Of a stretch of DNA of 64,000 nucleotides, positions 23,690-52,425 are shown one piece after another. The stretch is taken from positions 11,904,001 through 11,968,000 of the forward strand of contig OZ020244.1 in the NCBI GenBank assembly GCA_963971285.1, read 5' to 3'. The notes below the pieces were generated by a model that had not been told where the DNA came from, did not search any database, and was given only the letters and a program-made list of their open reading frames with translations. Position numbers and translations under genes: made by a program. Position 1 is the first letter of the stretch, and each line of letters begins with the position of its first letter. The stretch comes from Astropecten irregularis (Eukaryota > Echinodermata > Asteroidea > Paxillosida > Astropectinidae).

Positions 23690-23694
23690 TTAGT

Positions 23695-23900
23695 AGTAGT
23701 AGGGAAATACCGGACCTATTGCAAAATGAAAAATTGTGACATTGAGAACTATTTTTTTTCATTTCATTTCAACAATTTTCAATGAGTGTGATTTATACAT
23801 CCCCATTTTCCCGCGTTATTTCTCAATATTCTTGGAAAATTGTAAAATGAGGAATTCCCCATTTATCCCGGTCATTGAAAATTTTTGAAATGAAATGAAA
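23695..23900 (+). repeat. Polinton left terminal inverted repeat
   Basis: About 205 bp, matched in reverse at 40391-40595 with only a few differences: one T/C change near the middle and one A-run length change near the inner edge. It ends in tandem TGAAA units. The immediate left flank TTAGT is the target duplication. Confidence 0.95.
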
Positions 23901-23957: not shown

Positions 23958-26900
23958 ATGACTGATCTAACAACGAATCAGCAAACGACGGAGCAGACGG
24001 TAAGACCAATTATTGCAAAGGGGTTTAGCCAATGGACAAAAGATAACTTAAAACATTTTGTTGCAGAAACCCACATTCCAATAGAAGATCCAGAAACGGA
24101 TTATACTAAAAGTGAATATATAAATGCTATTACACGCATACAACCCACCCGGAGTGGGTATAAAAGATGGGGTTATTTACAATTAAAAAGATATGTTCAA
24201 GATAATAATATTAGGTTAGATTTATCTAAAAAGCTCGATCACACTCGACGTGAATATATCAAAGCGATTAAAGCGTTTACAAATCAATTTACAAATTTAA
24301 TAAATAAAGATAATCAAGAACTTAGAGAATTAGCTAGAAAATTTAACCTCAATGTTGTTCCAACGGGTCGAAGAGGACAAGTATTAAAACGAGATTATAT
24401 CAAAACGATTAAAGAAAATGTATCATCAGAGGAAATTCATGAAGCGACAAACTGGAGAGAAGCGAGATCTTTTCGTGGTAATCTTATAAATTTAGAAATA
24501 ATTCTTCAAAGACAATATTCCGATCTAAATACATTTTTAAAACATCAGCATAAAAATATGATTAAAGAAGTAACAAAGATCTTTAGAAAAAAAGGCCAAT
24601 TTAAGCTTGAATTTAGGATAAAACTCGAATATATAAAAGTTGAAGTTTCAGATGAAACATTACATGATTTTACTTTTCGAACCGAACAACATATTATTTT
24701 AAGGGAAGATGAAATAAATGTAAAGGTTAATGAAATTTTGTTCGAGCTAATAAATGTAGTGGAATCAAAAGATTTTGGACCCTCAGGTTTAACTTTAAAT
24801 AAAATATTAGCGTTTTATATGAACTTTATTAAATATACCAATGTTTCTGGTAGTTCATATATTAAACTTACGCCATTTATTAAACATAAAAAGGCTGTTA
24901 TTAACATACAAAATAAAGATGATCAATGTGTTAGATGGGCTATCAGATCTGCATTAGGGTTATACAAGGATGAAATTAAAGAAAAGAAAAAGAAGAATCC
25001 AAAATATCAAATTATGGAAGCAAGAACCACCACCTATAAGTTAAATGATGGCTTAGATTTTACCGGTATAGATTTTCCAACACCCTTAAAGCAGATTCCT
25101 AAAATAGAAAAACAAAATAATTTAAATATTAACGTGTTTGGGTTAGATTGTAATGATGAAAATAAGAATTTCCTTATCCATTATATATCTCTAAAGAAAC
25201 AAACGACATTCACATAAATCTATTATTATTTACTAGAGAGGTAGAAGAAGAAAAAGATGAAATTAAAACAAAAAGGCACTATTGTTGGATTAAGAATTTT
25301 TCAGCCCTATTTAGCAATGGTACAAGTAAAGATGAGCATAAATTATATTTTTGTTACAGATGTCTATCTCATTTTTATACACGGCAAAAATTAAAAATTC
25401 ACGATGAAATATGTCAAGGATTAACCGTTCATCCTTCAAGAGTCATCCTTCCAGAAGAAGATAAAAATATTCTAAAATTTAAAAACTTTAAAAATTTTCA
25501 AGATGCACCGTTTGTGATTTACGCTGATTTTGAATGTATTTTAGAAAAACACAATGCAGAAAAGATGAAAAAAACTAAAAAGTTGAGCGTTCATAAACCC
25601 AGCGGTTATTCTTACGTCGTGGTAAGATTTGATGGAAAACTAATGAAGCAAAAAACCTATAGAGGGTGTAACGCTAGCGAGCATTTAATTAATTCATTGT
25701 TAAAAGAACAACGTAAAATTAAACAAATATTTAATAATCCTAAACCAATCGAAGAGATCGACGAATCATTAATGACGAGTAACGAGTGCTGGATTTGTGA
25801 AAAGGAAATATATCAAACTAGCGTTTTATATTGTAATTGTGAGATACCCCGTGAACCCAAAACCGAATCTGAAAAAGAAGAAAACGCGGTCACGAACAGT
25901 AAAGGTTATACAGATTTTTTGTGTTTAGAATGCGGTAAAAAAATTAATAAATTTAGAAAAGTTAGAGATCACTGCCACATCACGGGTAAATTTAGAGGAG
26001 TTGCACATGATTATTGTAACTTAAAACTTAAAGTAACAACTCACACACAAATACCGGTTATTTTTCACAATTTTAAAAATTACGACGGTCATTTGATTAT
26101 GCAGGGGGTAAGCGCTTGTATCAAAACGTTAAATAATAAAATAAAAAAACGTAAAACGTGTATAGAAAAAATCAAAACTCGTATAGAAAAAATCGAAACG
26201 TATAAAGAAAAACTCAAAACGCAAGAAATAAAACTAATTAATCAAAAACTAAAAATAATCGATGAAAAAATAAATGTTAAAATCGATGAACTAAAAGATG
26301 TTTTAAGTATATTAAATTATTATCAAAAGGAAAAAAACGTATTCAATAATATATTTTGTGTTCCTCAAAACTCAGAAAAATACATAAGTATTAGTATAGG
26401 TCAACTCCGTTTTATAGATTCGTTAAATTTGATGAACTCTTCCTTAGAAAAATTAGTCGCTGCTTGCCCTAAAGATGCATTTAATTTATTTAGAAAACAT
26501 TTTAAAGATTATAATACGGATGATGTTGATCTTTTATTAAAAAAGGGGTGCTATCCATACGAATATATGGATTCCTTTGATAGATTTAAAGAAACTCAAT
26601 TACCACCCATTGAAAAGTTTTATAGTAAGATAAAACTCAAAAGTATTACGCGAGAAGAATATACTCACGCGGAGTTGGTTTGGAAAACTTTCAACTGTAA
26701 AACTCTAGGTGATTATCACGACTTATACGTGACCACGGATACGTTATTACTCGCTGATGTGTTTCAAAACTTTAGAACCACTTGTAAGAAAACCTATCGT
26801 TTAGATCCAGCGAAATATCTCACGGCACCGGGGTTGTCTTGGGACGCTTTGTTGTTACATTCTAAAATAGAATTAGAACTTTTAACCGATATCGAACAAT

Positions 26901-28354
26901 ATTTATTTTTTGAAAAAGGTAAAAGAGGTGGTTATTCTAGCGTGGGTAGTTGTAGGCATCACAAAGCCAACAATAAATATTTAAAAGATTACGACCCCGA
27001 AAAAGAATCTTCTTATGTACTTTATTTAGACGCGAACAATTTATACGGTTGGGCAATGAGTCAATATTTACCCTACGCCGATTTTAAATGGTTAACCGAT
27101 TACCAAGTCGCTAACTTTATGACCGATCATATTTTAGGTTTAGCTGATGACAACGACTATGGATTTTTGTTGGAAGTAGATCTAGACTATCCTAAAGAGC
27201 TTCACGACTTACACAACGACTTACCCTTAGCCCCAGAGAACATAACCGTATCGGCTGAACGGTTAAGCCCTTATCAAAAAGAATTGTTATCTAGCGGAGA
27301 AAAAGCTTCGCGAGATGACAGACTCATCGCTCATTTAGGACCTCGTAAAAAATATGTCATTCATTATAAAACGTTAAAACTGTATTTACAACTAGGATTA
27401 AAACTCACGCGCGTACATCGTGTTTTACGATTTAAGCAAAAACCTTGGATGCGGTCTTACATCGATAAAAATACACAACTCAGAAAAATAGCCAAATCAG
27501 ATTTTGAAAAAGATTTTTTTAAACTCATGAACAATTCCGTTTTTGGTAAAACAATGGAAAATGTTAGAAATAGAATAGATGGAAATATTATTATAGACGA
27601 TGATAGCGATTTATCGGTAAAAAAAGTATTAAAACTAGCATCCAAATCTAATTATAAAACATCGACTAAATTTACAGATTCTAATATAGGTTTCTTTGAA
27701 AGGTATAAAGAAAAAACGTATTTAAATAAGCCCATCTATTGTGGAGTGAGTATATTAGATTTAAGCAAATCTTTTATGTACGACCTTTATTACAATCACT
27801 TGAAGAAAAAATATAACGATAACATAAATCTCATGTATACCGATACCGATAGTTTATTATTGATCGTTAAAACCGACGATGTTTACGAGGATATTAAACG
27901 AGACACAGAACTTTACGATCTATCTAATTATTCACCCACTCACCCTTTATTTGACCCTAAAAACTAAAAAGTAATTGGAAAAATGAAAGATGAATACGGT
28001 GGTCAAGTAGTAAAACAAGCCATTTGTTTAAGATCAAAAATGTATGTAATCTTAATACAAGATGATAAAGAGGTTAAAAAAATTAAAGGTATAACAAAAA
28101 CCGTGACTGAAAAAAATATTATCTTTGAAAATTTTTATAAGTGTTTAAAAGATAAAAAATCTCAAGAACATCAAATGAATATAATTCAATCTAACAAACA
28201 TCAAATTTATACGCAAGTGAAAACCAAAACTTCATTGAGTCCTTATGATGGAAAAAGATATATTTTATCTGATGGAATCAATACTTTAGCATTTGGCAAT
28301 AAAAAAATTAAATATCAAGATTCTGGCAATTTGGTGTCATCCGGAACGATTTGA
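23958..28354 (+). pseudogene. pPolB: Protein-primed type B DNA polymerase, two lesions
   Basis: Copies the element's DNA from a protein primer. The ATG at 23958 opens 419 codons with three SAP/HeH-like repeats in the first ~150 residues, then a conserved N-terminal block ending near NVFGLDCNDENKN. Reading then shifts: the same protein continues from about 25196 in another frame, consistent with a 2 nt gain in a CTCT stretch near 25190. The main part holds a C2H2-like finger, Exo I YADFEC (25520), an HNH-like DHCHITGKFRG block, Exo II HNFKNYDGH, Exo III YVTTDTLLLADVF, motif A DANNLYGWAM (27029), motif B NNSVFGKT (~27530) and motif C YTDTDS (~27838). All catalytic Asp residues are present. A single in-frame TAA at 27965-27967 cuts off the last ~130 residues, which continue in frame to 28354 and overlap the integrase end by 40 bp. 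Confidence 0.95.
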
Positions 28355-29358
28355 AGTTCTTCTTTTACAAACGATCGATTAGGTCCGTCTTTTAAGTAAT
28401 AAAGCGTAGGACCTGTAGTAACTTTTTTACCACTCATGATTTTAAATTGACTTGTTCTTTTTTCAATTTGATACATGTTAACGCTCCATATGGGATCGGT
28501 AGCCCTCCTCACAGTACCTCCTTCTTGTTCCCCCGGTTGATATAAATAACGAACTAAAACATTAGCCGGAAGATCACTAACGTTTGTTTTTTGTGGTGAT
28601 GAGGGTAATTGTTTAACCCTTTTTAACTTGATCGCTTGCGTGGGGGTGATTTCTTTATCTTCTGAATCTCGAATCAATCGTGTTGTTTCTTCATTGAGGG
28701 ATTTTATAACCTGGGGCAACCTCACCACCCATTCAACGTTTCTCGCCTGCGGGCGAAGCATTTCTTGCATGTATTGATGACCGAATAATCTTTCGGCTAA
28801 GGTTCGGTTAAATCTTTCGACTACCCCTTGCGATCGATGCACACCCGGCACACCTACACTGATCTCTACGTCATGAGACTGAAACAACTTTTTAAAATCT
28901 CCTTTAAATTCTGTTCCAGCATCGATTTGCACTAATTTAGGCCACGTTAATGACGAACGCTTGTAAATTTTAATAATCGCGTCTTTTACTTGTCCGGTAA
29001 CTTTGGAAGTTATGGGTTCAGCCTCTTTATACCGACTCGCCACGTCTATGACCGTCAACGCATATTTAAACGTTTTTTGTTTAACTCGATCCCAGGGTAA
29101 GTATAATACATCTAACTGATGTACGTAATTTGGTTCTAACCAATCACTCGACATTGCCGTCGGCCTAGGCACATATGAGGGAGGTGGTAAATAAATTTGC
29201 CAAACAGCTTGTTTTTTTAACCAAGATCTAACTTTTTGTTTATCAACCCCTGTTTTTTTATGCAATTGCGTAACAGCGCCCTCACCTTTCCAATAACCTT
29301 TAGGGCTGTAAAACAAACCTGAAAGCTGTTTTCTTTGTTTTTTATTTAACTCGCTCAT
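28315..29358 (-). CDS. Retrovirus-type integrase (Polinton INT)
   Basis: Joins element ends to host DNA. I chose the ATG at 29358 (MSELNKK), eight bases past the stop of the upstream gene; an in-frame ATG at 29373 is also possible. From 29358 the protein has 347 residues. The N-terminal helix-turn-helix-like region includes KKTGVDKQKVRSWLKK. The RNase H-fold core carries D83 (HQLDVLYL), D146 (QIDAGTEF) and E181 (SQGVVERFNR). D146 and E181 are 34 residues apart, close to the usual D,D35E. A basic C-terminal part may form a chromo- or SH3-like fold. It reads without breaks and is convergent with the polymerase. Confidence 0.95.
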   Translation of the reverse strand: MSELNKKQRKQLSGLFYSPKGYWKGEGAVTQLHKKTGVDKQKVRSWLKKQAVWQIYLPPPSYVPRPTAMSSDWLEPNYVHQLDVLYLPWDRVKQKTFKYALTVIDVASRYKEAEPITSKVTGQVKDAIIKIYKRSSLTWPKLVQIDAGTEFKGDFKKLFQSHDVEISVGVPGVHRSQGVVERFNRTLAERLFGHQYMQEMLRPQARNVEWVVRLPQVIKSLNEETTRLIRDSEDKEITPTQAIKLKRVKQLPSSPQKTNVSDLPANVLVRYLYQPGEQEGGTVRRATDPIWSVNMYQIEKRTSQFKIMSGKKVTTGPTLYYLKDGPNRSFVKEELQIVPDDTKLPES

Positions 29359-29365
29359 TTTTATT

Positions 29366-29788
29366 TTATACATATCTATAAATGAAGAACCCCACTGCAG
29401 CTGTACCACCTAATACCCACACGAGTTCTCTAATTTGTTGATCATCACTCGGAGTATAAAAGTCGCTAAGTTTTGGTTTAGGTGGTAATTCAAAATCGTA
29501 ATTTTCACCCGTTACTTCGCTGTACACTCTAAGCGCTTCGTTTACGTTACTAAACGTTCTTTCTGATAATTTTTGTTGTATCATACGTTTATTCAAATAA
29601 TCGAGATATTTAACACGTTGTTGTTCCCAATCTTCTTTGGCTCGCGCTAATTTTTCTAATGCTAAGTCATGTCTTTTTCGTTCTTTGTCAATTTGTTGTT
29701 TTGATAAACTGCTAAATAAAAAGTTACTACCGGTAAACGCTAATGCATTTACTATTGCCCCGCCAACCATCATTGCTATTCCTGCCAT
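29366..29788 (-). CDS. Small conserved Polinton membrane protein, 140 aa
   Basis: Starts at ATG 29788, head-to-head with the capsid candidate at 29846. The N-terminal 25 residues are hydrophobic and Gly/Ala-rich (AMMVGGAIVNALAFTG). A long charged helix rich in Lys, Arg and Glu follows (about residues 33-85). The C-terminus has a second hydrophobic segment (VWVLGGTAAVGFFIYRYV). Proteins of this layout, with ERKRHDLALEKL-type helices, are frequent in animal Polintons; their function is unknown, and a minor virion membrane component is my inference. The stop overlaps the upstream ATG choice of the integrase. Confidence 0.75.
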   Translation of the reverse strand: MAGIAMMVGGAIVNALAFTGSNFLFSSLSKQQIDKERKRHDLALEKLARAKEDWEQQRVKYLDYLNKRMIQQKLSERTFSNVNEALRVYSEVTGENYDFELPPKPKLSDFYTPSDDQQIRELVWVLGGTAAVGFFIYRYV

Positions 29789-29845
29789 CTTTTTATTTAT
29801 ACTAATTTAAAAACCTTATATATTAAAAACACACTATTTTGAACT
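29789..29845. promoter_or_regulatory. Divergent promoter with TTATATATTAAAAA
   Basis: The 57 bp gap between two head-to-head genes holds TTATATATTAAAAAC at about 29815-29829, upstream of the ATG at 29846. The same motif precedes 32972, 33112 and 37359. Confidence 0.6.
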
Positions 29846-31108
29846 ATGAATCATTACGGTAAAAAACTAAACCCAACGAGGCGTCTTAAAATCCCTAAAG
29901 CCATTAAAGGCGAACGAAGAGAAGTGTCAATCACTCATAATCCAAGCACGATTGCGGCTGGTCAAAAACTCATCGTTAAGTTTCCGCAATTAGGACCCGA
30001 CGATGTTATCGTACCCGGTACTTCTAAACTCGCTTTTAAACTCGAGTTAGAGGGAGGATCAGATGATAATCGAACGGTGTTTAACAACTTATGTCGTAAC
30101 TTAATACGCGAAATCAATGTTAGGCTTCAAGGTAACACAATCGTGAGTTATCGCGATGCAGATGTCTTTCACAATTTTAAAGATAACTGGCTGCATCCCT
30201 ATATTACACGAAATATGGCTTATGTAGGCCTTGAAAAAGAAAACGTCACAAAATTAAGATTGGGGGCGGGGGATGCTAGTGCCGAAAATAATAGCGGAAA
30301 AGATAAAGCTATCGCCGACGCGTTTGGTAATCGATATTGTATTCCTTTAGATATTGAGCTTTTAACAGCACATCATCCTTTTTATCCTAGCAGTCTAAAG
30401 CAGCCCCTGACATATGAATTAACATTTAACGATCACGATAAAGTCGTTAATAGCTCGGATACAAGTGCCCAATATTCAATTTCGGATTTAACGCTTGAAT
30501 ACGAAGTTGTCACTAGCCGAGATTTGGCACAAGAGCTAAAAAACAAACGAATGAAATACTATCTTTTTGATCACGTACATAATTTAGAAACAAGATCAAT
30601 CAACAAATCGGATACCTTATGGAACGTTATGATTAATCAACCGATTAAAAGTCTCAAAGGTGTTTTAATCTTATTTAGAGATCCAACGGTAAAAAACCCT
30701 CAAAGATTTTATAATCCCCACATTAGCAAAACCAGCATTACGGTTGAAGGAAAACCCAATCAACTTTACTCACAAGGTATGTTTGAGTATCAGCACTGGC
30801 AAGAAGTTAATAAATTTTTTGGTGATAGCGATACCGAAAACGGTCAATCGATTGTAAAAGATTTAAATTTAGTGGGTATAGAAATGGCTGGCTACTATAA
30901 AGATAAATACGGCCTGTGGCTAGATTTTCGCTCAACTGATGATAAAAGTGCTCACGGAAGTGGAAGACGTTTAAACGACGGAGGAGGAATTCAGATTCAG
31001 ATGACTCGAGAGGCTGAAACACCAGGGGATTTAACGATGTTTGTATTTTTGGTCATGGACGCGCAATTAACCATTGAGGATGGAAATTTTAAGAATTTAG
31101 TTTTTTAA
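29846..31108 (+). CDS. Major capsid protein candidate (double jelly-roll)
   Basis: 420 residues, intact. The pattern of a PGTSKLAFKLEL strand, FNNLCRNLIREINVRLQGN, then DADVFHNFKDNWL early in the protein, followed by many short hydrophobic strands, fits the double jelly-roll major capsid proteins of Polintons and adintoviruses. These form hexagonal capsomers. It lies directly upstream of the packaging ATPase, as expected of a morphogenesis module. I recognised it by pattern, not by a search; the 396 aa minus-strand protein at 34847-36034 is the other large structural protein and the roles could be exchanged. Confidence 0.65.
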   Translation: MNHYGKKLNPTRRLKIPKAIKGERREVSITHNPSTIAAGQKLIVKFPQLGPDDVIVPGTSKLAFKLELEGGSDDNRTVFNNLCRNLIREINVRLQGNTIVSYRDADVFHNFKDNWLHPYITRNMAYVGLEKENVTKLRLGAGDASAENNSGKDKAIADAFGNRYCIPLDIELLTAHHPFYPSSLKQPLTYELTFNDHDKVVNSSDTSAQYSISDLTLEYEVVTSRDLAQELKNKRMKYYLFDHVHNLETRSINKSDTLWNVMINQPIKSLKGVLILFRDPTVKNPQRFYNPHISKTSITVEGKPNQLYSQGMFEYQHWQEVNKFFGDSDTENGQSIVKDLNLVGIEMAGYYKDKYGLWLDFRSTDDKSAHGSGRRLNDGGGIQIQMTREAETPGDLTMFVFLVMDAQLTIEDGNFKNLVF

Positions 31109-31124
31109 ATGCTTATTAAAATAA

Positions 31125-31728
31125 ATGGAATCTTGTCATTGTGCTTTAATTGTAGGAAAAACAAACTCGGGAAAGACTAAATGGATTTTAGATTTATTGG
31201 AAACCAAATATCGTGATAAATTTGAATCGATCGTGATCATTTGCCCGACCTTATTTAAAAATAAAACTTATTTATCGAGGCTTTGGATAACAATGGATGA
31301 AAATGTATATTTGTGTGATTTAGACTCTGAAAAAATAACTTTAAATGAAGCCTTAGATTTATATCAAAATATTTTAGATGGGATAAAAACGTTATTTATC
31401 ATAGATGATTGTTCTAGTCAGCAGGAAATAAAATATCGAAAAAAAAACATGTGCGTTGAGCAAAATCGCTTTTTCTGGGAGGCATTATAACCATAGCTGT
31501 TGGTTATTAACACAAAAGTATAATTCGGTTTTAAAAGACTATCGTGAGAATACAAGTTGGGTTGCGATGTTTTATACAAAAGATAAAACGAGTTTTGATA
31601 TTGCATTAGATGAAAATGATGTTGTGTGTGATCAAAAAAGAGACGTAATTAAAAAACATTTGTGTGATAAAAAATATAGTAAATTGGTTATTAACACAGA
31701 ACCTCCAGTTTCATACCACGTTTTATAA
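31125..31728 (+). pseudogene. Genome-packaging ATPase (FtsK/HerA type), frameshifted
   Basis: Would drive DNA into the capsid. ATG at 31125 is 17 bp after the capsid candidate. Walker A is GKTNSGKT (about residues 11-18) and Walker B is TLFIIDD (about 87-93). Shortly after, a nine-A run at 31439-31447 shifts the frame: the first frame ends at 31490, while the conserved downstream part (FSGRH, then LLTQKYN, near 31470-31520) is open in another frame to 31728. A one-base length change in the A run explains it. Polymerase slippage during transcription could restore some product, but this is speculation. Confidence 0.88.
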
Positions 31729-31803
31729 AAATTTAACAACCTAATTTTTGTTATCATTTGTTGTATTTTGTTAAAAATTTGCTAATAACTACCTATCAAG
31801 TTA

Positions 31804-32045
31804 TTTATAGCAATTTTTAATTTTGTTATAAATAAAAAACACCAATGCTACAATACGTTGATGTTATTATTAAGTTTGTTATCACTTTAAACTTAAGCTA
31901 CTTATGTTATAATTTATTTTGCTTTATAGCAATTTTTAATTTTGTTATAAATAAAAAACACCAATGCTACAATACGTTGATGTTATTATTAAGTTTGTTA
32001 TCACTTTAAACTTAAGCTACTTATGTTATAATTTATTTTGCTTTA
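31804..32045 (+). repeat. 119 bp perfect tandem duplication
   Basis: TTTATAGCAATTTTTAATTT begins copies at 31804 and 31923, and GCTTTA ends them at 31921-31926 and 32040-32045. Two full copies appear identical. The unit includes the AT-rich leader and the first codons of the next gene, so its start region exists twice. The period is not a multiple of three. Confidence 0.93.
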
Positions 32046-32689
32046 ACAAAATGTATAAGTTGTTATATAGTAAAATGAATGACTTAACAACAATTATAAA
32101 TAGCGATGTAAATAAACCTTCAACAACAAACGACAGTAGTTATAAAGATCGACTTTGTGGTATAGTTGCTGCAGGTGATTCAAAAAAATATTTAGGTAAA
32201 GAATACACCATCACAGACATAGAAGCCCTAACACCTGCAGATCAAGAAAAATTATTTAACCGGTATCAAGCTAAATTCGGTAAAGAAGTGGTAACTACAG
32301 TGGGTAACTCAATTTTGAGTTTGTATGCACGAGCTATAGGTTTAGCAACTCCGGCTGATATTTTAGGAATTAGAATTAGCTTAAATTCCGAGGAAAATTT
32401 AACCAATGATTTAAATAACGATCCTATCATTAGTAATAGCTTAGCTTATGTACTTAGTGAGGTTTGTTACAAATATGGTGTCTACCTATCACCTTTGATA
32501 GCAACACTTATTACCACAAAACATTTAAACTTTAACAAATCCACAACAAATAAAAATACTTATATAATAAATAATTCAAATGACAACTATGCATCAGGAG
32601 AACGAGCAAGCTTTAACAACAGCACCCTCAACAACAACACCAACAGCACCAACACCGATACCAACAACCCCAGTGACCCAAGTAACTAA
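31964..32689 (+). CDS. Conserved Polinton protein, unknown function, up to 241 aa
   Basis: The first ATG in frame is 31964, inside the second copy of the 119 bp duplication; 32051 and 32075 are alternative starts that avoid the hydrophobic N-terminal segment. The core (KEYTITDIEALTPADQEKLF, RYQAKFG, then AYVLSEVCYKYGVYLSPL) matches a helical protein common in animal Polintons. The last ~50 residues are Asn/Thr/Ser-rich and of low complexity. It overlaps the next gene from 32589. A structural or membrane-associated role is only inference. Confidence 0.7.
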   Translation: MLQYVDVIIKFVITLNLSYLCYNLFCFNKMYKLLYSKMNDLTTIINSDVNKPSTTNDSSYKDRLCGIVAAGDSKKYLGKEYTITDIEALTPADQEKLFNRYQAKFGKEVVTTVGNSILSLYARAIGLATPADILGIRISLNSEENLTNDLNNDPIISNSLAYVLSEVCYKYGVYLSPLIATLITTKHLNFNKSTTNKNTYIINNSNDNYASGERASFNNSTLNNNTNSTNTDTNNPSDPSN

Positions 32690-32946
32690 AAAACAAACGC
32701 TAAACGCGTTGAACAAGGTAAACGCCTGGCAGAACATAATAAAAAAATGAAAGAGCAATTAGCTAAAATGAAAACAGAAGAGTTGGAGTCAGAGATTATT
32801 CAAAATACCCCGGTTTAATTTTAGTAGGCGGTATAGGTTTTTTATTGTATAAATCATCAAACAAATCACCAAAAAACTCTAAAACTATTCAAATAACAAA
32901 ACCAAGTCTACCACAGAGTCAACCCGAAGAACTTTTAATGGATTGA
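32589..32946 (+). pseudogene. Small basic membrane protein, two frameshifts
   Basis: ATG at 32589 opens a Thr/Pro-rich leader overlapping the end of the previous gene. A Lys/Arg/Glu helix beginning near RVEQGKRLAEHNKK (about 32705-32815) is open in a second frame, and a hydrophobic segment (LVGGIGFLLYK, from about 32821) followed by a polar tail is in a third, ending at 32946. The order of leader, charged helix and single membrane span is typical of a small Polinton protein. Two short indels, near 32690-32704 and 32810-32818, would explain the changes. Confidence 0.65.
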
Positions 32947-32971
32947 TTTTTAAAATGTTTATATATTAAAA

Positions 32972-33082
32972 ATGGATGAAACAATCGTAAATGATATTGC
33001 CGCCACAGTTTATATTTGTGTTTTAATAGCAGCAGCCACCATTGGCTTCACCTTTTATCAATCTTTAAAAAAGGGGGACTAA
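32972..33082 (+). CDS. 36-residue membrane micro-protein
   Basis: ATG at 32972 follows TTTATATATTAAAAATGG. The protein is a single hydrophobic helix (about residues 10-29, VYICVLIAAATIGFTF) with an acidic N-terminus and basic C-terminus (SLKKGD). It has its own promoter-like motif and sits in an array of structural genes, which supports it being real despite its size. Function unknown. Confidence 0.6.
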   Translation: MDETIVNDIAATVYICVLIAAATIGFTFYQSLKKGD

Positions 33083-33111
33083 TTTAAATTTTAAAAACTT
33101 ATATAGTAAGA

Positions 33112-33366
33112 ATGGCAAATACAAATATTGATATAAACGGAATAGCAAACACAGTTTATCATGGTGCAGTGTTAAGCCTTTTAACCATGGGATACTCGAT
33201 GGTAAGTAAAAAATTACTCAAAATTAAATCGCCTGATTTAGATAGGCTTAGTGTAGAAGATGCGGCTAAACTAACCGCATTAGTCGGAGGTTCTTTAGCA
33301 ACGCAACAGTGGCTGGTCACACAGGGAATCTTACCAGGTAGTATTATAAATAAACCTACAGTTTAA
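33112..33366 (+). CDS. 84 aa conserved Polinton membrane protein
   Basis: ATG at 33112 follows ACTTATATAGTAAGA. The sequence has NTVYHGAVLSLLTMGYSM near the start, a basic KKLLKIK turn, then LSVEDAAKLTALVGGSLA and WLVTQG. Small proteins of this layout recur in animal Polintons; their function is not known. Two hydrophobic helices suggest membrane association. Confidence 0.7.
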   Translation: MANTNIDINGIANTVYHGAVLSLLTMGYSMVSKKLLKIKSPDLDRLSVEDAAKLTALVGGSLATQQWLVTQGILPGSIINKPTV

Positions 33367-33392
33367 AATGTGTATATAATAAAAAATTAAAG

Positions 33393-34754
33393 ATGGCTGA
33401 ATTTGATTATAAAGAGACTGATCCCCTGTTAAATGAAACAGAAGATGGAGACAATCAACAATTTAACAACCCCGTTTATAATAATGACGAACTCGATTCT
33501 GAAGAAAATCAAGCTCGATTAAATACTTTACGAGGTGGTGATGCACAAGAACAACGAGAGGAATTAAGAGCTCTTCGTAATGGTGAAAATGTTTTTATCA
33601 TATTTAAACTTCAAAATCAGTACATTGATAAATTTTATGATAGCATAAGAAGTGAAGGTTATAAAACTACCGATTTAGGCCTAATTCAACGCGAAAACTT
33701 TAGATTTGAAGAGGATGGAACATATTACGAAAAAGGTAAAATTAAAATAAAATTAACGTTGAATAATGATCATACAAAAATTGCTTCTGCGCATACAATA
33801 TATTCTAAAACATATAATAAAGGAATTAAAAATAGAGCTCTTTTTATGCGAAAAGATTTAGGGATTGTTGATTTTACAACATCAACAAAACGCAACAAAG
33901 AAGCAAGCGCAGCGCTTCAACAAGCAAGTACATCTTTAACTAATATTCAAAGTGAAAACATACCCTTACAAGATTTATCACAAGCAGCTGATCAAACGAG
34001 TAATGTTATAGAAGAACTCGAACAAGAAACCAACATTGATGAACAAAGTGAATTTAATATCAGAGAGCTACGCGGTTTAGACCAAACATTACAATCGCTA
34101 AAAGGAAATTTATTATTGGAACAAACAAAGCTAACTGAGTTAAATGAGACAAAAGAAAGAGTTAAAAAAGAATTAGACGAAGCAAAAAAAGCAGAAGATG
34201 AAGAACAAATAGGATCACTCACAGAAGAGTTAGAAAATGTAAACATTAAAATACGAGAAAGGTCTAATAATATCATAAGAGCATCAGATAAAATAAAATC
34301 TCAAATCAATCGCATCAAAGAAACAATCAATATAATGTTAGACAGTGATGTAACGCTTAGAGAAAAAATTAAGTTTTTATTTAAAGAGCAAGGTGTCACG
34401 ATCGCGAGTATTTTAGCAGCAATTTCTATGGCTATCAGCACACTGGTAAGCTCGGTGGTAGCAGCCGTTAGAGGCGTAGGCATCCCAACCCCAGAGCCAC
34501 CCGCGCCTAAACCTGAACCACCATCAGGAGGTGGCATCAAAGAGTGGGTACAAAAGCACTTGAAAAACTTAGCAAACGCTTTGAAAAAAATAGGGTTAAC
34601 CGCATTAGGTGCGCTGCCGGGGGTCATTGGTAGCGTCATAAGTTGGTTACTAAATGTTTTAAGTAAATCAGTTGGCTGGCTAGCAGAACACGTGTGGGCT
34701 TTATTTATAGGTACAGGTGCTTTAATTATTGCTTATATTAAAAATAATTGGTAG
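33393..34754 (+). CDS. 453 aa coiled-coil protein with C-terminal hydrophobic domain
   Basis: ATG at 33393 follows GTGTATATAATAAAAAATT. The acidic N-terminus (to ~60) is followed by a globular part with VFIIFKLQNQYIDKFY. A long coiled coil lies at about residues 190-320 (rich in Glu, Lys, Leu). A Pro-rich linker with PEPPAPKPEPP follows near 367, then an amphipathic and hydrophobic C-terminus (WVQKHLKNLANALKKIG, ALPGVIGSVISWLL, ALFIGTGALIIAYI). Similar C-termini occur in other invertebrate Polintons. It could be a virion membrane or spike-like protein; that is inference. Its 3' end meets the hairpin at 34787. Confidence 0.7.
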   Translation: MAEFDYKETDPLLNETEDGDNQQFNNPVYNNDELDSEENQARLNTLRGGDAQEQREELRALRNGENVFIIFKLQNQYIDKFYDSIRSEGYKTTDLGLIQRENFRFEEDGTYYEKGKIKIKLTLNNDHTKIASAHTIYSKTYNKGIKNRALFMRKDLGIVDFTTSTKRNKEASAALQQASTSLTNIQSENIPLQDLSQAADQTSNVIEELEQETNIDEQSEFNIRELRGLDQTLQSLKGNLLLEQTKLTELNETKERVKKELDEAKKAEDEEQIGSLTEELENVNIKIRERSNNIIRASDKIKSQINRIKETINIMLDSDVTLREKIKFLFKEQGVTIASILAAISMAISTLVSSVVAAVRGVGIPTPEPPAPKPEPPSGGGIKEWVQKHLKNLANALKKIGLTALGALPGVIGSVISWLLNVLSKSVGWLAEHVWALFIGTGALIIAYIKNNW

Positions 34755-34786
34755 TTTTGTTTTTTAACAAATAATAAAAAAATAAC

Positions 34787-34838
34787 CCCCAAGCTCTTTT
34801 TGAGCTTGGGGGGTATTTTTTTTTTTTTTTTAATATTT
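34787..34838. terminator. Hairpin terminator-like element between convergent genes
   Basis: A perfect 11 bp stem (CCCCCAAGCTC with GAGCTTGGGGG) and 5 nt T loop is followed by a long T run; A-rich sequence precedes it. It lies between the stops at 34754 (+) and 34847 (-), so it could serve both strands. Confidence 0.7.
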
Positions 34839-34846
34839 ATATTTTT

Positions 34847-36034
34847 CTAAGTCAAAATTTCGTAGACTAAAACTCCTATCGCAATGATTGCAACTGTTCC
34901 TATCGTTAAAGATAATTTTTCATCTTGATGAATGTCTAAAGATGCTTTAGGATTTGACTCTGGGGTTTTAGGTGTAGGTAATAAACGTGGTGTAGGTTCT
35001 TCTGTTGGTTCTTGAGTGGGCTTGGGTTCAAGGGTTGGTTGAGGATCAAAGTCCTCAACTTGTACCGGAGCGTTTAAGGTTGGTTGAAACCCCGGTTTAG
35101 AGGTTAAAGGTGCAATTTGCAAGTTATTATTGTAACCATCGTGTATGCCTACCCTTAAATCCATATCTGACGGAATGAGGTATAGCCCGGGTCTTACAAC
35201 AAAGTTGAGTGGAGTTTTAGCATACTGCAGTGAATCTTGAAATTGATTGATACTTTGCTCTAAATCTGGTTCACTATTAATGAGACTTTCTACGATGGTA
35301 ACAAACTGATGCTGTGCGTCTAAACCGGTTCCCGGGGTTAAAACACTGGTTTTTGTTTGTGCTTGTGCACCTAAAAGCGCGTACACGTAAGCCCTAATCG
35401 ATTCGTTAATTTTTGTAATTCCAACATCGGTAAAAGAACTCGTCTTTGAAATAAAGTCTGTCCAAGCACCTAAAACATTTTTGGATTGTTCAAGCCAAGT
35501 GACTGTATAGGTACTCGCGTGACCCGATCCTTTTGGTGGATCCACCAAACCAAATCCCATATAAGTTGAGCCTGCATACGTACCGTAGTTTACACCCAAG
35601 TCGTGGGGGTCATAGTTTTTCCCCGGCACTGGAACCGGCCCTGAATTGTAGTAAAAAGCAGTACCCAAGCCGTTTGAGGTTGTATCTCTCGTTTGTTTAA
35701 AAGACTTGCTTCGGTCGATACCAAATACGCGACACGTGTCCGTAAAAGCTCTCGTATCATAACGGTTATTTAACGCGTTAAATACATCATCACCAGGTAT
35801 CGGTGCTATCAAATTATAAAATATTTTTCGCATCGTATAATACACGTGAAAATGAAACAGCGATGAAATGTATTGGTTTTTATTGTTGAGGAGGTCAAGG
35901 CCTACTCCGCACGCGGTCGTGGCACAATAAATCGCAAAGTTGAATTGGTTTTGATAAAAGGTTAAAGGGTTGGTTTGCCATCGTGTTATCGCTTCGTCTG
36001 TTTTAACGCGTGGTAATTTATACGAGGTTGACAT
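34847..36034 (-). CDS. Conserved Polinton structural protein, C-terminal anchor
   Basis: I chose the ATG at 36034 (MSTSYKLPR); the longer opening upstream lacks an ATG. About 395 residues. The N-terminal part has TNPLTFYQNQFNFAIYCATT and FHFHVYYTMRKI, the middle INESIRAYVYALLGAQAQT and the C-terminal third YLIPSDMDLRVGIHDGYNN. This pattern is familiar from uncharacterised Polinton proteins of molluscs and lancelets. A Pro/Thr/Glu-rich linker and a final membrane helix (TIGTVAIIAIGVLVYEIL) follow. It is probably a virion protein, and could be a capsid component or membrane-anchored. It is the only large minus-strand gene in the structural block. Confidence 0.7.
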   Translation of the reverse strand: MSTSYKLPRVKTDEAITRWQTNPLTFYQNQFNFAIYCATTACGVGLDLLNNKNQYISSLFHFHVYYTMRKIFYNLIAPIPGDDVFNALNNRYDTRAFTDTCRVFGIDRSKSFKQTRDTTSNGLGTAFYYNSGPVPVPGKNYDPHDLGVNYGTYAGSTYMGFGLVDPPKGSGHASTYTVTWLEQSKNVLGAWTDFISKTSSFTDVGITKINESIRAYVYALLGAQAQTKTSVLTPGTGLDAQHQFVTIVESLINSEPDLEQSINQFQDSLQYAKTPLNFVVRPGLYLIPSDMDLRVGIHDGYNNNLQIAPLTSKPGFQPTLNAPVQVEDFDPQPTLEPKPTQEPTEEPTPRLLPTPKTPESNPKASLDIHQDEKLSLTIGTVAIIAIGVLVYEILT

Positions 36035-36146
36035 ATCTTTAAATTGTACAAAAAAAAGTATGATTTTTATTGACAGCAATAGCTAAAGACCCTAAAGAGT
36101 TTCCCATTTATAATATAAGTCTTTTTATAATAAAAGTAGAGTAAGA

Positions 36147-37358
36147 ATGAGCGAAATACAACACATATTTTATTTGACAAAAAACGAACAAACGTTTAAA
36201 TTGCAAGAGGTGATTGATAATTTAGATGGCTCAAAACAAATTCGCGTTAAAAATCTCGTGTTTACGGTAGGCTATTTTAACATAACCAAATCCAGTGAGA
36301 TTACTTGGGAAAAGGAGATAGATGGGCAACCCGCTTATACTAACGGTAGGCCTAGAGACAATAGACAAACTGATGAAAGCTCACAACCACAGACAAAGCC
36401 ATTAAAACTGACCCCTGAGATAATGAATCAATTTAATTTATCGATGACAACTGAAGAAATTCAACAAAGCCGAGAAGAAGTCATAACACGCATTATTAAA
36501 CAGATGTTTGACGGATATGATACTGGAATTCTTAACGAAGTGGAAATAAAAATACAAGAAGAAATCCAGGTCCTCAGACAACGAAAACGAACCCTAGAAT
36601 CATCTAGGGATAGACTTGATGATGAATTACAAAATGAAGTTAACTATGTAATACATTTATTAAATAAAAGAATATAATATATCATAGAAGGCCAAGTATT
36701 AGCCGCAGATTTACTTCGATATGGATACAACAATGACAATCAAGAAAAAACAGAAAATATGCGTTTACCACAAATTAAAAACAGCCTCGTTGTTTTAGGA
36801 CATAAAGAGCCAATCGTAAATGCACTACATCCGGTGAGTGAGGTTACGGCTTTACCCGAGGGCAAATCAGGAAGCATCATTATTTTACCTGGATTTTATG
36901 GTATCGATTGGTTTGAGTCATTGATAAACGCGATACCAGGTGTGAGCTTTAAAGTCTATAGAGAAAGTCAAACGGTGACCTTAAGGGTCGCTGATATAAA
37001 CCTTAATCTACGTTTAAACCGAGAAGTTTCTAATTTGCTCAATTTACCCAAAGGAAGGTTAATCCCAAATGTCATTTATAAGGGTGATTACGATATTAAC
37101 CCATTTACCATTACGTTTATTCATTGCGAGCAGTTAAACACGAGTGATAATTTTTACAATAGGTTTCCTTCAAATGTGTTATCATTTTATCACACGAGCC
37201 AAACGAGTCAAACTCACGTTGGAAAAACATTAAAAAACGGTAAAATTGATAAACTTGCCTTTTCAATTAAAAACGAGGAAGGAAAAATCATCAATAACAA
37301 AGGCGCGGGGATTTTAATCGAATGTGAAATAATTAAAAAACGCTTATATATTAAAAAT
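36147..37358 (+). pseudogene. Penton-like minor capsid candidate, in-frame stop
   Basis: ATG at 36147. One frame is open from 36147 through 37358 and beyond, except for a single TAA at 36675-36677. The part before the stop begins with strands around VKNLVFTVGYFN and then a Glu-rich helix. The part after it has IIILPGFYGIDWFESLINAI, paired strands around VTLRVADINLNLRLN, and LAFSIKNEEGKIINNKGAG near the end. This order resembles single jelly-roll penton-type proteins of Polintons, which occupy capsid vertices. The frame carries on without a stop into the next ORF at 37359. Confidence 0.6.
37339..37358 (+). promoter_or_regulatory. Promoter motif inside fused frame
   Basis: CGCTTATATATTAAAAAT directly precedes the ATG at 37359, matching the motif before 29846, 32972 and 33112. 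It implies that the downstream protein is expressed separately although the frame upstream is continuous. Confidence 0.65.
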
Positions 37359-38030
37359 ATGGCAGCCATTAATGTAAATGAAATAAAACCTTTATATCCT
37401 AATCTAAACTTAAACAGCGGTGATGATATTAAAGACGAAACTAAAATTTATCGACTTCAAAAAATTGAAGAGATTAAATCTCAAATCTGTAAAGAAAGAA
37501 ACTCGCGCGAGGTTTCTTTTAAAAAGTTAAAAAGGTGGATCTCTGCGATTCAATATGTAGAGCACGGGGTTGAAGTACTAGGGGTCACTGCAGCCGCGAT
37601 AGGGATCCCCGCATTAATGGGTGTTATTAGTGCCCCAATTGGCTTAGTCTTAGAGGGGACTAGCATAGGTGCCTTTGGATTTTACGCGGTACTTAAATAC
37701 GCAAGCAAAAAATTAACGGTAAAGAGTAAAAAACACGATCAGATTAAAATTTTAGCAGATGCAAAGTTAAACACAATAGATGAATACGTGTCAAAAGCCA
37801 TCGAAGATGGTGATATTTCTCACGAAGAATTTATATTAATTACGTCAGAACTTAAAAAATTTAACGACTTGAAAGAAAAAATAAGATTAAAAACTTCTAC
37901 AAAGTTAGAAGAAGCTAAACATTTAAATAAAGTTGAATTTGAACGACAAGTTGAAGAAAAGGCTAAAGCGATGGCGAGTGATTTACTCGCCAAAGAAAAA
38001 AAAGAGCTTATGAAAAAACTTCGAGATTAA
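37359..38030 (+). CDS. PX-like conserved Polinton protein, 223 aa
   Basis: I chose the ATG at 37359 because a TTATATATTAAAA motif lies just before it and because the residues read through that motif look non-protein-like. The protein has a charged helical N-terminus, a hydrophobic centre (VLGVTAAAIGIPALMGVISA and GAFGFYAVLKYA, about residues 77-115), then a helical segment HDQIKILADAKLNTIDEYVS with an EF-hand-like EDGDISHEEF near residue 150. The Lys/Glu-rich tail is probably a coiled coil. Proteins of this layout are frequent beside penton genes in animal Polintons. Function unknown; membrane remodelling is a guess. Confidence 0.65.
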   Translation: MAAINVNEIKPLYPNLNLNSGDDIKDETKIYRLQKIEEIKSQICKERNSREVSFKKLKRWISAIQYVEHGVEVLGVTAAAIGIPALMGVISAPIGLVLEGTSIGAFGFYAVLKYASKKLTVKSKKHDQIKILADAKLNTIDEYVSKAIEDGDISHEEFILITSELKKFNDLKEKIRLKTSTKLEEAKHLNKVEFERQVEEKAKAMASDLLAKEKKELMKKLRD

Positions 38031-38108
38031 GTTTAAGTTTGACAAAGTCGTTTAAAAACGACGAGAGTAAACCTCCGAGTTATAAAGAAAGTCAAGCGAG
38101 AGTTACCC

Positions 38109-38540
38109 CTACAGCTCCTCCTCTTTAAAAGTTTCGTTGTATCTTTTTAACGCTTGATTAAAATATTTTAATTCTACTTGAAATAACTTTTGTACTGTTT
38201 CTTGGGTTACGTTAGAAACATTTTTTAGATAACAAACTGCCATTAACGACCTGAGTGGATGACCCCTAGATATTTTTCCCTTTAATATTTGTTTTAATTT
38301 AAACTCGATGAGTTTAAGCTCACACATTTGGTATTGAATGTTTAATTTATCAAAGACTTTTTTTACTATAGAAGCCTTTGTTTTTTTATAGAAAAATCTC
38401 TGATTATACTTTCCATTAATATTTTCCGTAGAATAATCCATGAGACTATAACCTATAATTAATCCACACTTGTCGCAATAATACTCGTCTTTGTCTTCAT
38501 CAATCATGATGTTGTGAGTGCACATACCTATCTCATTCAT
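38109..38540 (-). CDS. TFIIB-like transcription factor, viral type
   Basis: 143 residues, ATG at 38540 following a TTATATAAAAAATATAA leader. The N-terminus forms a zinc ribbon: C7, H9, C22 and C25 (MCTHN, then YYCDKCGLIIGYS). After a basic linker, residues ~60-135 read as one cyclin-like repeat with KISRGHPLRSLMAVCYL, which resembles the RGKxRK...ACxxYA region of TFIIB homologues in nucleocytoplasmic large DNA viruses. The second cyclin repeat of cellular TFIIB is missing, as in some viral forms. It would recruit RNA polymerase II to the element's promoters; that is inference from family. No lesion is seen. A VLTF-type zinc protein is the main alternative. Confidence 0.75.
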   Translation of the reverse strand: MNEIGMCTHNIMIDEDKDEYYCDKCGLIIGYSLMDYSTENINGKYNQRFFYKKTKASIVKKVFDKLNIQYQMCELKLIEFKLKQILKGKISRGHPLRSLMAVCYLKNVSNVTQETVQKLFQVELKYFNQALKRYNETFKEEEL

Positions 38541-38687
38541 TTATATTTTTTATATAAAATTTTTTTTTTTTTTAATTTTTTTTTTTTTTAAATCATTGTT
38601 TTTCACCTAATACTTTACTCACAATGCGTGGGCGTTTTTATAAAGAGTGTAAAGGGGCCGGGGTCTATGCCTTAAACTCATCAAAGA

Positions 38688-38717
38688 GGGTCAACAACAC
38701 TGTTGACCCCCTTTTTT
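38688..38717 (+). terminator. Hairpin plus T-run, terminator-like
   Basis: A 9 bp perfect stem GGGTCAACA/TGTTGACCC with a 4 nt loop (38688-38709), then CCC and six T at 38712-38717. It lies beyond the TFIIB-like gene in a gene-free part of the element. Confidence 0.55.
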
Positions 38718-39062
38718 GGGGTACCGGGTTCAAAGTTTAAAGGTTTTTTTTTTCATGTTTTTTTATGTCAGGATATTGTTTTTTATGTTTCTTATTAAAT
38801 ATCCCCCCAAATATTCAACGAGAAACATTTTCTTTCTTTTTCTATTTTTTTTTCATGTTTTTTTATGTCAGGATATTGTTTTTTATGTTTCTTATTAAAT
38901 ACCCACACCAAATATTCAACGAGAAACATTTTTTCTTTTTCTATTTTTTATTCATATTTTTTGTTATGTTAATTTCAATTTTACAGACCGTGCGTCGAAC
39001 CCGGTACCCCACGACTTGAAGCCGATGAGCTTGTCCGCTGGGCTATCCACCCAGCCCCGAAA
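38718..39062. repeat. tRNA-like insert with inverted 14-mer ends
   Basis: GGGGTACCGGGTTC at 38718-38731 recurs in reverse as GAACCCGGTACCCC at 38997-39010. The second copy is part of a tRNA-like stretch on the minus strand (about 38985-39062) with A-box-like TGGATAGCCCAGCGG and B-box-like GGGTTCGAC. The acceptor stem does not pair, so it is not a working tRNA. It is probably a SINE or tRNA pseudogene captured by the element. Confidence 0.5.
38751..38950 (+). repeat. Two tandem 100 bp T-rich units
   Basis: TTTCATGTTTTTTTATGTCA begins copies at 38751 and 38851. The units include TATTCAACGAGAAACATTTT and differ by a few bases. Non-coding, although each unit happens to be open in two frames. Confidence 0.85.
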
Positions 39063-39445
39063 AAATTCGTGTTTTAATTGTGATATATCTTATACTCGAA
39101 ATAGTGCAATAACAACGATGACGACACAAAGGACGAGTCTATTTTTGAGGGGTGTTTGACTGTGATTGTGGCGGTTTACATGGGTTCAGTCATGCAGTAT
39201 ATTTCAATAACAAACCCGGGCGCTTTTAAGAATTTGACCTTTGTGCCATCAGATGACTAAGCGTTTTACACTACGTTCAGTCATGAATGGAATTTGAATA
39301 ACAAAAACCCTGTTTACGCTGGGGGTTTAACCACGTGTGACATTGAATGATGGCTGTTTTTTCCAAGCGAGTGTTATGTATACACCTGAAGGTAAATAAC
39401 CTTTAGTGCATTGTCAAGTGTATATGAGTAGTGTGCATGCATACG
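39060..39445. other. Gene-free segment of the Polinton
   Basis: No ORF, repeat or RNA recognised. Its composition is less AT-rich than the coding part of the element, and it could be acquired host DNA. Confidence 0.4.
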
Positions 39446-39447
39446 AC

Positions 39448-39487
39448 AAAAAAAAAGCCACATCCAAAATAGGATGTGGCTTTTTTT
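39448..39487. terminator. Bidirectional hairpin terminator-like element
   Basis: GCCACATCC at 39457-39465 pairs with GGATGTGGC at 39472-39480 across a 6 nt loop, flanked by an A run on the left and a T run on the right that can extend the stem. It lies about 75 bp past the stop of the minus-strand DUF2738-like gene. Confidence 0.7.
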
Positions 39488-39560
39488 AGTGTGTAAATAA
39501 AAATGATAATTTTTTGGTTATTTTTTCAGCTTTCTTTTTTTTTATATTCTAGATTTAGAT

Positions 39561-40330
39561 TTAGTCATCAATATCTTCAATATCAAACATGATATTAGTG
39601 GGGATTTGTATAGTTTCATATTGCCTAATAGCAGCTTGTTCTAATTTAAATCTAATACTCGCACCAAACCCACTGTTACCATGAGAACCAAAAAATATAT
39701 CATTACAGATGAGAACAGGTGTAACTTTTACATGATTTATTCATATATTCATCAATGTTATCAATCTTTTTCTTTTTAGAATCAAACAATTTTGTATATT
39801 GTTTTAATTGATTTCCTTTTCCATATGATTTAAGTTTAATATACATTTTTTTGTTTTTATCATCATAAATTGGTTTAACACTTTGTTTTCCCATGTTTAT
39901 ATACATAGATTTGGTTGTTTTTGGTATATTTTCATCTTTAACAGATTCAATATATTTAGCTACTGTACATATCATTTTATCAAAGTATTTAACAATTTCA
40001 TCACAGTCATTTTGTAAATGATATGCAATTTGATAGCCAGTTGTGTTGTCTAGACTTTTTTCTTCACCAAAAGCATTAATTGTATTTATTCCAAAACAAA
40101 AATTTGTTGGTAACTTAAACATTAAATTACATTCCTTTTTATCGTGTTTATAAGTAATTTTTGATTTAGCATATTCTACTCCTTCTTGTGAAGTTTTAAT
40201 CACTGGATTTATTATTAAATTTTTCTCATTAAACAACCCATAATGATTATATTCACTTTTATCTACGCTTTTATATAGATCATGTTTTTCAGTTACAATA
40301 TATGTATGTTTTAATGTTTTGTTTTGTTCA
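39561..40330 (-). pseudogene. DUF2738-like protein (putative ssDNA-binding), frameshifted
   Basis: The minus strand is open from the right inner edge down to about 39725, reading a protein with IYDDKNKKMYIKLKSYGKG and NIDEYMNKSCK. That is the pattern of DUF2738, a family found in large DNA viruses and proposed to bind single-stranded DNA. At about 39725-39730 a four-A run changes the frame: the first frame stops at 39703, while the matching C-terminal part (strands, then an acidic FDIEDIDD end) continues in another frame to 39561. A one-base gain explains it. No in-frame ATG lies between the upstream stop near 40374 and residue ~60, so the start may also be lost or non-ATG. The gene abuts the right terminal repeat. 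Confidence 0.65.
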
Positions 40331-40390
40331 ATCTTATTTATAATAATATAAAATAATATTATTTTATTATTTCATTTTTTCCGATTCAGT

Positions 40391-40595
40391 TTTCATTTCA
40401 TTTCAAAAATTTCAATGACCGGGATAAATGGGGAATTCCTCATTTTACAATTTTCCAAGAATATTGAGAAATAACGCGGGAAAATGGGGATGTATAAATC
40501 ACACTCATGGAAAATTGTTGAAATGAAATGAAAAAAAATAGTTCTCAATGTCACAATTTTTCATTTTGCAATAGGTCCGGTATTTCCCTACTACT
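40391..40595 (-). repeat. Polinton right terminal inverted repeat
   Basis: Reverse match to 23695-23900, ending CCCTACTACT, followed by the TTAGT target duplication at 40596-40600. The few differences from the left copy suggest a young insertion. Confidence 0.95.
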
Positions 40596-40600
40596 TTAGT

Positions 40601-41445
40601 ATTTACTGGATACATATACCAAATGGTACCAATCGTATTTATTGAAAATATTGCATGGACTAGGCATACTGATACTCGTAGAACACTTCTTAAATCGAGT
40701 ATTGCAACCTATATAGTGAACCGTACACATCAACATTTTACAATGTACATTACTGGGTCATTATACATGTATTTAGGAATCAATGATAGAAGAAAAAAGT
40801 CAAATTCAGGGCTACAAACAGACTCACCCGGCTAGATAATTTTGGCGATATGCGAAAATGCAGTGTAGAAATAGTAGTAGTAGGCCTATGCCTACATTAA
40901 TTTCCGCCCGCGCCGATCTCCATGGTAATTTTGAAAAACAAATCTCACATAATCTACTTCTGGTAGAAACGAAGATTCATTCTTGGTATTTAGCTATTTT
41001 GTATAGATTTAGTCCGCTTTTAAACCATGATATAATAGATGGGTTGTTTACTTTGTATAACGGTACCGTAGCATTAATATATTCTAGTTTAGTCTGCACG
41101 TGTTGCGTTATTAGCACTTGCCACAGATTTGTATCCGTCTTGTTCCCGTTATACATATCACCGTATCAAACACTATACTCGCAAGGGTAGCTGACTGAAA
41201 TACGATTGCGTGCTCATCGATTGCGTGCTCACGGGAAAGTCCCAAATTGGAAGTCAATAAGACGACCCCCAAAATGGACAGAACGCATGCGTGTAGCACG
41301 AGAGGGGTTACTGGTATTGACGTGCTCAATCGGAAGCCCATTATTTTAGTGATCGCGCACATGGTGTTGTATTTTGTTGCAAATAACGCAGTCGTATGTA
41401 AGACACAGATTTCTTGCCGCAACGAAAAGGAAAACTCTACCGACT
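40601..41445. other. Non-coding right flank of the Polinton
   Basis: Mixed composition with a short duplication GATTGCGTGCTCA near 41200-41230. No gene recognised. Confidence 0.4.
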
Positions 41446-47900: not shown

Positions 47901-48289
47901 ATTCAAGAATGTAGACATCAAGAGGCAATACATCGGCCACCACATGAGAGACTTCACTGAGCTGGAAGGAATCATGAAGACTCATAGACGCAGCTTTATT
48001 GGCAGTATGTTTGGGAAGGATATTCTTCTGGCCACTCCCCTGTTACGATGGTATATGGCGCACGGGATCCAGGTCCAACATGTGTACGAGAGCATCCAGT
48101 ACACACCCAGCGATTTTTTTCCAACAGTTCGGCAATGAAGTGAGCGATGCCAGACGAGCAGGCGACAGCGACCCATCCAAAGGAATCATAGCAGATACCA
48201 TGAAACTGCTTGGGAGGTCGAATGGGAGGGTGACGGAATTATCGCCCTGTCCAGTAACACCTACTATTGCTTCGGGCGCTGTCGTACAG

Positions 48290-51200: not shown

Positions 51201-52380
51201 GCAACATTGAAATGTATGCTGATGATACACTCATGTATTGTGGTGAAAAACACACTAATCTCATTGAAAATAATCTAAAGATAGATCTCTTGAACTTGAC
51301 CAACTGGCTCCGGGCTAATAAACTCATTATTAATCCCCAAAAAACAGAACTCATGTTAATCGGAACTGCACAAAAACTTCGAAGGTCCAATCCTCTTCAG
51401 ATCCACCTATCCGGCCAGAAAATCAAACAAGTTGACTGTCACAAACATTTGGGAGTTATCTTTGATAGTAACCTAAAATTTAAGGAGCATACAAATAAAC
51501 TGTGTAACAAATTAAATTCGTCAATTTCTGTTTTAGCTAGGACAAGGAAATTCATTAATCAAGCGACTGCTACTTCCCTTTATAATGCCCTGGTTTTACC
51601 GCACATAGACTACTGCTGCATGTTGTGGGGTGCCAAGCCTTCACTGGTCTGTAAAATTCAAAAGCTTCAGAATAGAGCACTTCGTATTATTCTTAAGGTC
51701 CATCCTCAAACCTCATCTAGTATTCTATTTAGTCACGTCAATGTTATGACCGTTTCACAACGTGTTCAATTTCAACTTGGCTGCCAGTCTTATAGGGCTT
51801 CTATTGGTGTTGCTCCAGACTACATGTGCCGGATATTGAACAGGATCCAGCCTGGCAATCGACCAACAACTCGTGCAGTTACACAGGGTAACTACATCTT
51901 CCCTAAACCCAACTGCGAACTTTTCAAAAACTGCTTTAGCTTTAGGGCCCCACATTTTTTAAATAGTATTCCCTCTGACATCCGTTCGTCTCCCTCTTTC
52001 CACTCATTTCGGCGTTCGCTAAAAGAGTGGATTGTGGAACATGAGCGGATGTCAGGTTAGTTTCATTAATCGGGTGGGTGGGGGAGGGCGCAATTTGCTC
52101 TCATCATTTTTTTAACTCTGTAATTATACTTTGAATGTAATTTCTTTTTTGATCATTCAGTAATTCTGCCTATATGTGTTAATATTCTTATTTATTTAAT
52201 TTTCCCTCACGTTTTTTGTACTGTTTGTTTGTTGTCTACCCTCCACGTTTTTAATCTTGTTTTTTTGTAAACTTGATGTCAATGTATCTTTGATGTTTTT
52301 TTAATGTAATGTTAAATGTCTGTCTCTGAGGGCCCCAAATGATCAGCTTGTAGCTGGATGGGTCACCCTCGTGAAATATG

Positions 52381-52425
<45 letters not shown>

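Follow-up and report, generated by a model that had tools for sequence, protein, structure and literature searches.

Polintons are usually held to rely on host transcription. A short ORF in a 64,000-nt stretch of the Astropecten irregularis genome (contig OZ020244.1, positions 11,904,001 to 11,968,000; hereafter the window) raises the question of whether such an element can carry a transcription factor of its own, and how much of TFIIB that factor would contain.

The gene and the element that carries it

The gene, here called half-TFIIB, sits inside a Polinton (Table 1). The terminal inverted repeats of the element are 191 bp long and identical at 189 of 191 positions, and the 5-bp flank TTAGT is exact on both sides. 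The Polinton location claimed in the preliminary description is borne out by these repeats with their AGTAGT ends, by the rve integrase and by the A32-type ATPase, and the gene itself lies exactly where that description had placed it, as an ORF of 143 aa on the minus strand. Vertebrate Mavericks have such AGT end motifs together with 6-bp duplications, according to PMC8097293. The half-TFIIB element resembles the Mavericks described there in its (AGT)2 end motif, terminal inverted repeats, integrase and ATPase, but differs from them in that its exact duplication is 5 bp long, a 6-bp duplication not being exact, and in its extra TFIIB-like gene.

Table 1 Features of the half-TFIIB element, in window coordinates.
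Feature	Position	Strand	Basis
Left target-site duplication TTAGT	23690..23694	.	5 bp
Left terminal inverted repeat, starts AGTAGT	23695..23885	+	
Probable protein-primed PolB region, three ORFs in two frames	23958..28354	+	Endonuclease_7 domain; polymerase motifs by eye
Retrovirus-like integrase	28315..29373	-	Pfam rve, E 7.7e-9, above cut-off
Probable major capsid protein	29846..31108	+	ORF; tentative assignment
A32-type packaging ATPase ORF, 121 aa	31125..31490	+	Pfam Pox_A32, E 5.8e-5, 23.1 bits against a cut-off of 22.8
half-TFIIB (TFIIB-like gene), 143 aa	38109..38540	-	ORF from ATG, protein relatives, predicted fold
Single cyclin box, residues 71-141	38118..38330	-	Predicted fold
Conserved basic linker, residues 32-70	38331..38447	-	Conservation among relatives
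Zinc ribbon, residues 5-31 (C7, H9, C22, C25)	38448..38528	-	Pfam and hhalign
Right terminal inverted repeat, plus-strand end ACTACT	40405..40595	-	
Right target-site duplication TTAGT	40596..40600	.	5 bp

Two further ORF assignments in the element, capsid and polymerase, were made from recognised motifs and not from a database match. The ORF that we take to be the major capsid protein had a best Pfam match of E 0.2, to an unrelated family, and no PDB sequence match at E ≤ 1. The PolB-like region, which we presume to be PolB from polymerase motifs recognised by eye, comprises ORFs at 23958-25217, 25565-27967 and 27983-28354; the second of these contains the Endonuclease_7 match (E 4.6e-5) and gave no Pfam polymerase match at E ≤ 10. 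The region is split in this way despite the 99% identity of the terminal repeats. By eye, the three ORFs look like pieces of one gene, and this copy of the Polinton is therefore probably not autonomous.

half-TFIIB is a real, conserved gene. An in-frame TAA lies immediately upstream of its ATG, so the protein starts at that ATG. The element has 10 ATG-initiated ORFs of at least 143 aa, against a mean of 0.01 in 100 random first-order sequences of the same length and composition, only one of which had any. Three successive protein searches listed 1, then 6, then 15 proteins, 14 of the last set at E < 1e-8. The relative P0001 (145 aa) is 69% identical over 99% of half-TFIIB; for the remaining proteins, many of which are fragments, identity is 48-60% and coverage of half-TFIIB 19-95%. 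The weak relative P0015 (E 0.47) was kept in the 16-member profile described below on account of an N-terminus like that of P0014; it also entered one fold alignment and was left out of the comparison for a second repeat. P0002, P0009, P0014 and P0015 have approximately 85 additional helical residues (1-85) N-terminal to the ribbon, which are absent in half-TFIIB and P0001. With the 15 relatives as queries, tblastn recovered half-TFIIB itself in the window; all other matches had E values of about 0.1 or more, and there is thus no second copy of half-TFIIB in it.

Several other features were noted in the same part of the element. A 67-nt direct repeat (38745-38811 and 38845-38911; 94% identical, 100 bp apart) lies between the start of half-TFIIB and the element's right boundary. 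At 39450-39487, two perfectly matching inverted arms of 16 nt enclose a 6-nt loop and end in a T-run. A stretch near 39000-39070 that appeared tRNA-like by eye was rejected, as ARAGORN found no tRNA in 23600-40700 and neither did Rfam, applied at gathering scores to the whole window.

Domain structure of half-TFIIB

By its sequence, the N-terminus of half-TFIIB is a TFIIB-type zinc ribbon. Its top Pfam match is Zn_Ribbon_TF (PF08271), with E 3.9e-4 and a score of 20.3 bits where the curated cut-off is 29; the same profile matches four of seven family members. The family profile (16 members, 13 used after filtering) was aligned by hhalign with an archaeal TFB profile made from the best 80 of 193 loci, 79 of which were used and one left out for length. 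The ribbon scored 34.1 (E 2.7e-6, probability 88.6), compared with a maximum of 18.9 in 100 column shuffles. The pattern C7-x-H9 ... C22-x2-C25 keeps three of the four canonical cysteines, and H9 may be the fourth zinc ligand. The C-x2-C...C-x2-C form is present in P0002, P0003, P0009, P0010 and P0015, while the second pair is altered in P0005 and P0008, and P0014 is without the first cysteine.

The ribbon is followed by the linker, most of which has a pLDDT below 52 in the half-TFIIB model and which may hold the place of the TFIIB B-reader and B-linker. Behind it, structure prediction supports a cyclin-box fold. TFIIB and Brf entries top four structure listings, which are not independent because they derive from two models (half-TFIIB and P0002). 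In one of them, the first 31 of the 50 entries listed are TFIIB or Brf, with sigma-factor and HTH entries lower; in another, obtained with the P0002 model, cell-cycle cyclins tie with TFIIB/Brf and account for 30 of the 50 entries listed. hhalign against the archaeal TFB profile gave 12.8 for cyclin repeat 1 and 13.0 for repeat 2, both inside the shuffle range, and thus no sequence signal linking the helical half of the family to TFIIB; with the ribbon above the shuffles and the cyclin repeats within them, sequence backs the ribbon only. half-TFIIB ends after one repeat, and the aligned relatives (P0015 left out) have no second one either.

The preliminary description had anticipated much of this architecture: its zinc ribbon is supported as TFIIB-type by a Pfam match below the cut-off and by an hhalign score above all shuffles, and its single cyclin-like repeat agrees with the predicted fold, with no second repeat behind it. 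The pattern that it gave as RG...ACxxL is a conserved motif but needs correction to R92-G93 ... A101-V-C103-x-L105; the residues invariant in half-TFIIB and six relatives are R92-G93, A101-V-C103-Y-L105 and F127-N128. Profile-profile comparison and structure prediction, of the kind that it proposed, recovered the ribbon by profile and the cyclin box by fold, but yielded no profile signal for the cyclin half.

The absence of such a signal is one reason to consider that half-TFIIB might be a regulator with a zinc ribbon, its C-terminal helices forming a domain that is generically helical or cyclin-like and not of TFIIB descent. The level ranking of cell-cycle cyclins with TFIIB for P0002, the sigma-factor and HTH entries lower in one listing and the low pLDDT of the ribbon in the P0002 model (43-55) all point in that direction. 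We nevertheless consider this origin improbable, given the TFIIB/Brf entries at the head of the four listings and the TFIIB-type sequence of the ribbon. half-TFIIB is TFIIB-like by its ribbon sequence and predicted cyclin-box fold, and is not a full TFIIB. It shares with TFIIB, archaeal TFB and Brf the order of an N-terminal zinc ribbon, a linker and, by predicted fold, a cyclin box. It differs from them in lacking the second cyclin box and one canonical ribbon cysteine, in its length (143 aa versus about 300), in being borne by a mobile element, and in having a cyclin box without a sequence link to theirs.

Relationship to cellular and viral proteins

Apart from domain order, nothing speaks for half-TFIIB being a piece of a host TFIIB or Brf gene recently captured by one copy of the element, and this origin is highly improbable. 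A sequence search of the PDB with half-TFIIB alone gave no match at E ≤ 10, although the set includes eukaryotic TFIIB and Brf, and P0001, which comes from another source, has nearly the same length. This result and the 69% identity to P0001 together argue for an old, diverged family. The seven-member alignment gave three PDB matches (E 0.077 to 1.5), none of them TFIIB.

In structural searches of viral proteins (Foldseek, BFVD), the best matches were TFIIB entries from Marseillevirus, Mimiviridae and iridoviruses, with E 5.8e-3 for half-TFIIB and 1.8e-6 for P0002. This resemblance to homologues in large DNA viruses accords with the likeness proposed in the preliminary description; the TFIIB entries noted are 186-428 aa long, against 143 aa for half-TFIIB. 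These matches between predicted structures provide a lead to a possible tie between the half-TFIIB Polinton and large DNA viruses. No relatives turned up on viral contigs in sequence searches that used as query half-TFIIB, a six-member alignment, or the integrase, capsid-like and PolB-like ORFs of the element; these searches relied on a few short patterns, by which distant relatives are missed. An archaeal TFB query, also run with few short patterns, likewise found none on these contigs. Phage records gave 16 matches to half-TFIIB, none convincing (best E 2), and the best PHROGs match (E 0.015) was to an unrelated family.

VLTF3, the poxvirus-type late transcription factor 3, likewise combines a zinc ribbon with helices. 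A VLTF3-like protein ranked ninth in the viral fold search of P0002 (E 3.3e-3, probability 0.80), and PMC11244446 reports VLTF3 genes in adintovirus-related (Polinton-related) elements of Amoebidium. Membership of half-TFIIB in this group, with a role as a late-gene factor, is nonetheless quite unlikely: a TFIIB entry comes first in the same fold search, and at E ≤ 10 Pfam gave no Pox_VLTF3 match for half-TFIIB and seven members, in a scan whose filters drop weak matches.

Within the literature searched, a TFIIB-like gene in a Polinton is undescribed. A search for Polinton, Maverick or virophage together with TFIIB, which covered partial texts, returned no report of one, consistent with the remark in the preliminary description that this is not known as a standard Polinton gene. 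In the portions available, PMC12638062, PMC13037468 and PMC11464507 treat TFIIB as a giant-virus gene; no TFIIB was found in those of PMC11071308, PMC12220804, PMC10120064 and PMC8097293; and that of PMC11071296 describes CTCF-like zinc-finger genes in some adintoviruses with no mention of TFIIB.

Proposed function

In cellular TFIIB, the ribbon binds the polymerase dock and the cyclin boxes hold TBP and DNA. We lean, if only slightly, towards the reading that half-TFIIB is a reduced TFIIB, in which a basic linker joins a B-ribbon to one cyclin box, and that it positions host RNA polymerase II on the promoters of the element. Its ribbon would dock on the host enzyme through the contact used by TFIIB, and its cyclin box would contact TBP, promoter DNA or both. 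Polymerase II could thereby be placed preferentially on AT-rich element promoters during expression of the element. The stretches upstream of the element ORFs are AT-rich and often TATA-like, and the 13 other element ORFs scanned with Pfam include no RNA polymerase-like gene.

A shared promoter motif was sought in the 45 bp upstream of 11 ORFs, chosen from 13; the other two were left out because other ORFs overlap or adjoin the DNA upstream of them. The candidate TATAATAAAA occurs exactly in 3 of the 11 stretches, and some 10-mer is found in at least three stretches in 59 of 1000 dinucleotide shuffles. With two mismatches allowed, 10-mers reach 11 of 11 stretches, which 22 of 100 shuffles equal and random places in the element, at most 9, do not; base composition explains the motif, and it was rejected as evidence.

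The missing second cyclin box also makes a decoy, or dominant-negative, role possible. With a ribbon and one repeat, about half of a canonical TFIIB, the protein could occupy host polymerase II through its ribbon and leave initiation incomplete, lowering host transcription rather than raising that of the element. This role seems unlikely to us in view of the strong conservation of the linker and cyclin box (R92-G93, A101-V-C-Y-L105, F127-N128), for which a decoy acting through its ribbon alone would have no use.

Large DNA viruses with TFIIB often carry an RNA polymerase. More tentatively than the polymerase-positioning role itself, we suggest that half-TFIIB marks a Polinton lineage whose own one-repeat TFIIB redirects host polymerase II to the element promoters and so provides a separate transcription programme without an encoded polymerase, possibly as a step toward the TFIIBs of large DNA viruses. 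If true, a small virus-like element would seize promoter choice through a single 143-aa protein, and half-TFIIB would probe how small a TFIIB can be and still work. It would also be a further gene common to Polintons and large DNA viruses, with a bearing on their debated relation.

Neighbouring sequences in the window

Fragments resembling a second, decayed Polinton are present at 45634-53885, where tblastn with the 15 relatives found no TFIIB-like gene. They include an ATPase-like ORF (53469-53885; Adeno_IVa2, E 3.7e-5) and ORFs at about 45634-48138 that appear polymerase-like by eye; of two that were scanned, one had no Pfam match and the other only Vsr (E 0.0011, below the cut-off). The only inverted repeat of at least 60 nt in 40596-64000 (42866-42950/44812-44896, 75%) does not flank these fragments. 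Within the same region, 48701-52060 is an ORF of 1119 aa that by eye encodes a LINE-type reverse transcriptase, and its first fifth contains GDVELNPGP, which we take to be a 2A-like motif.
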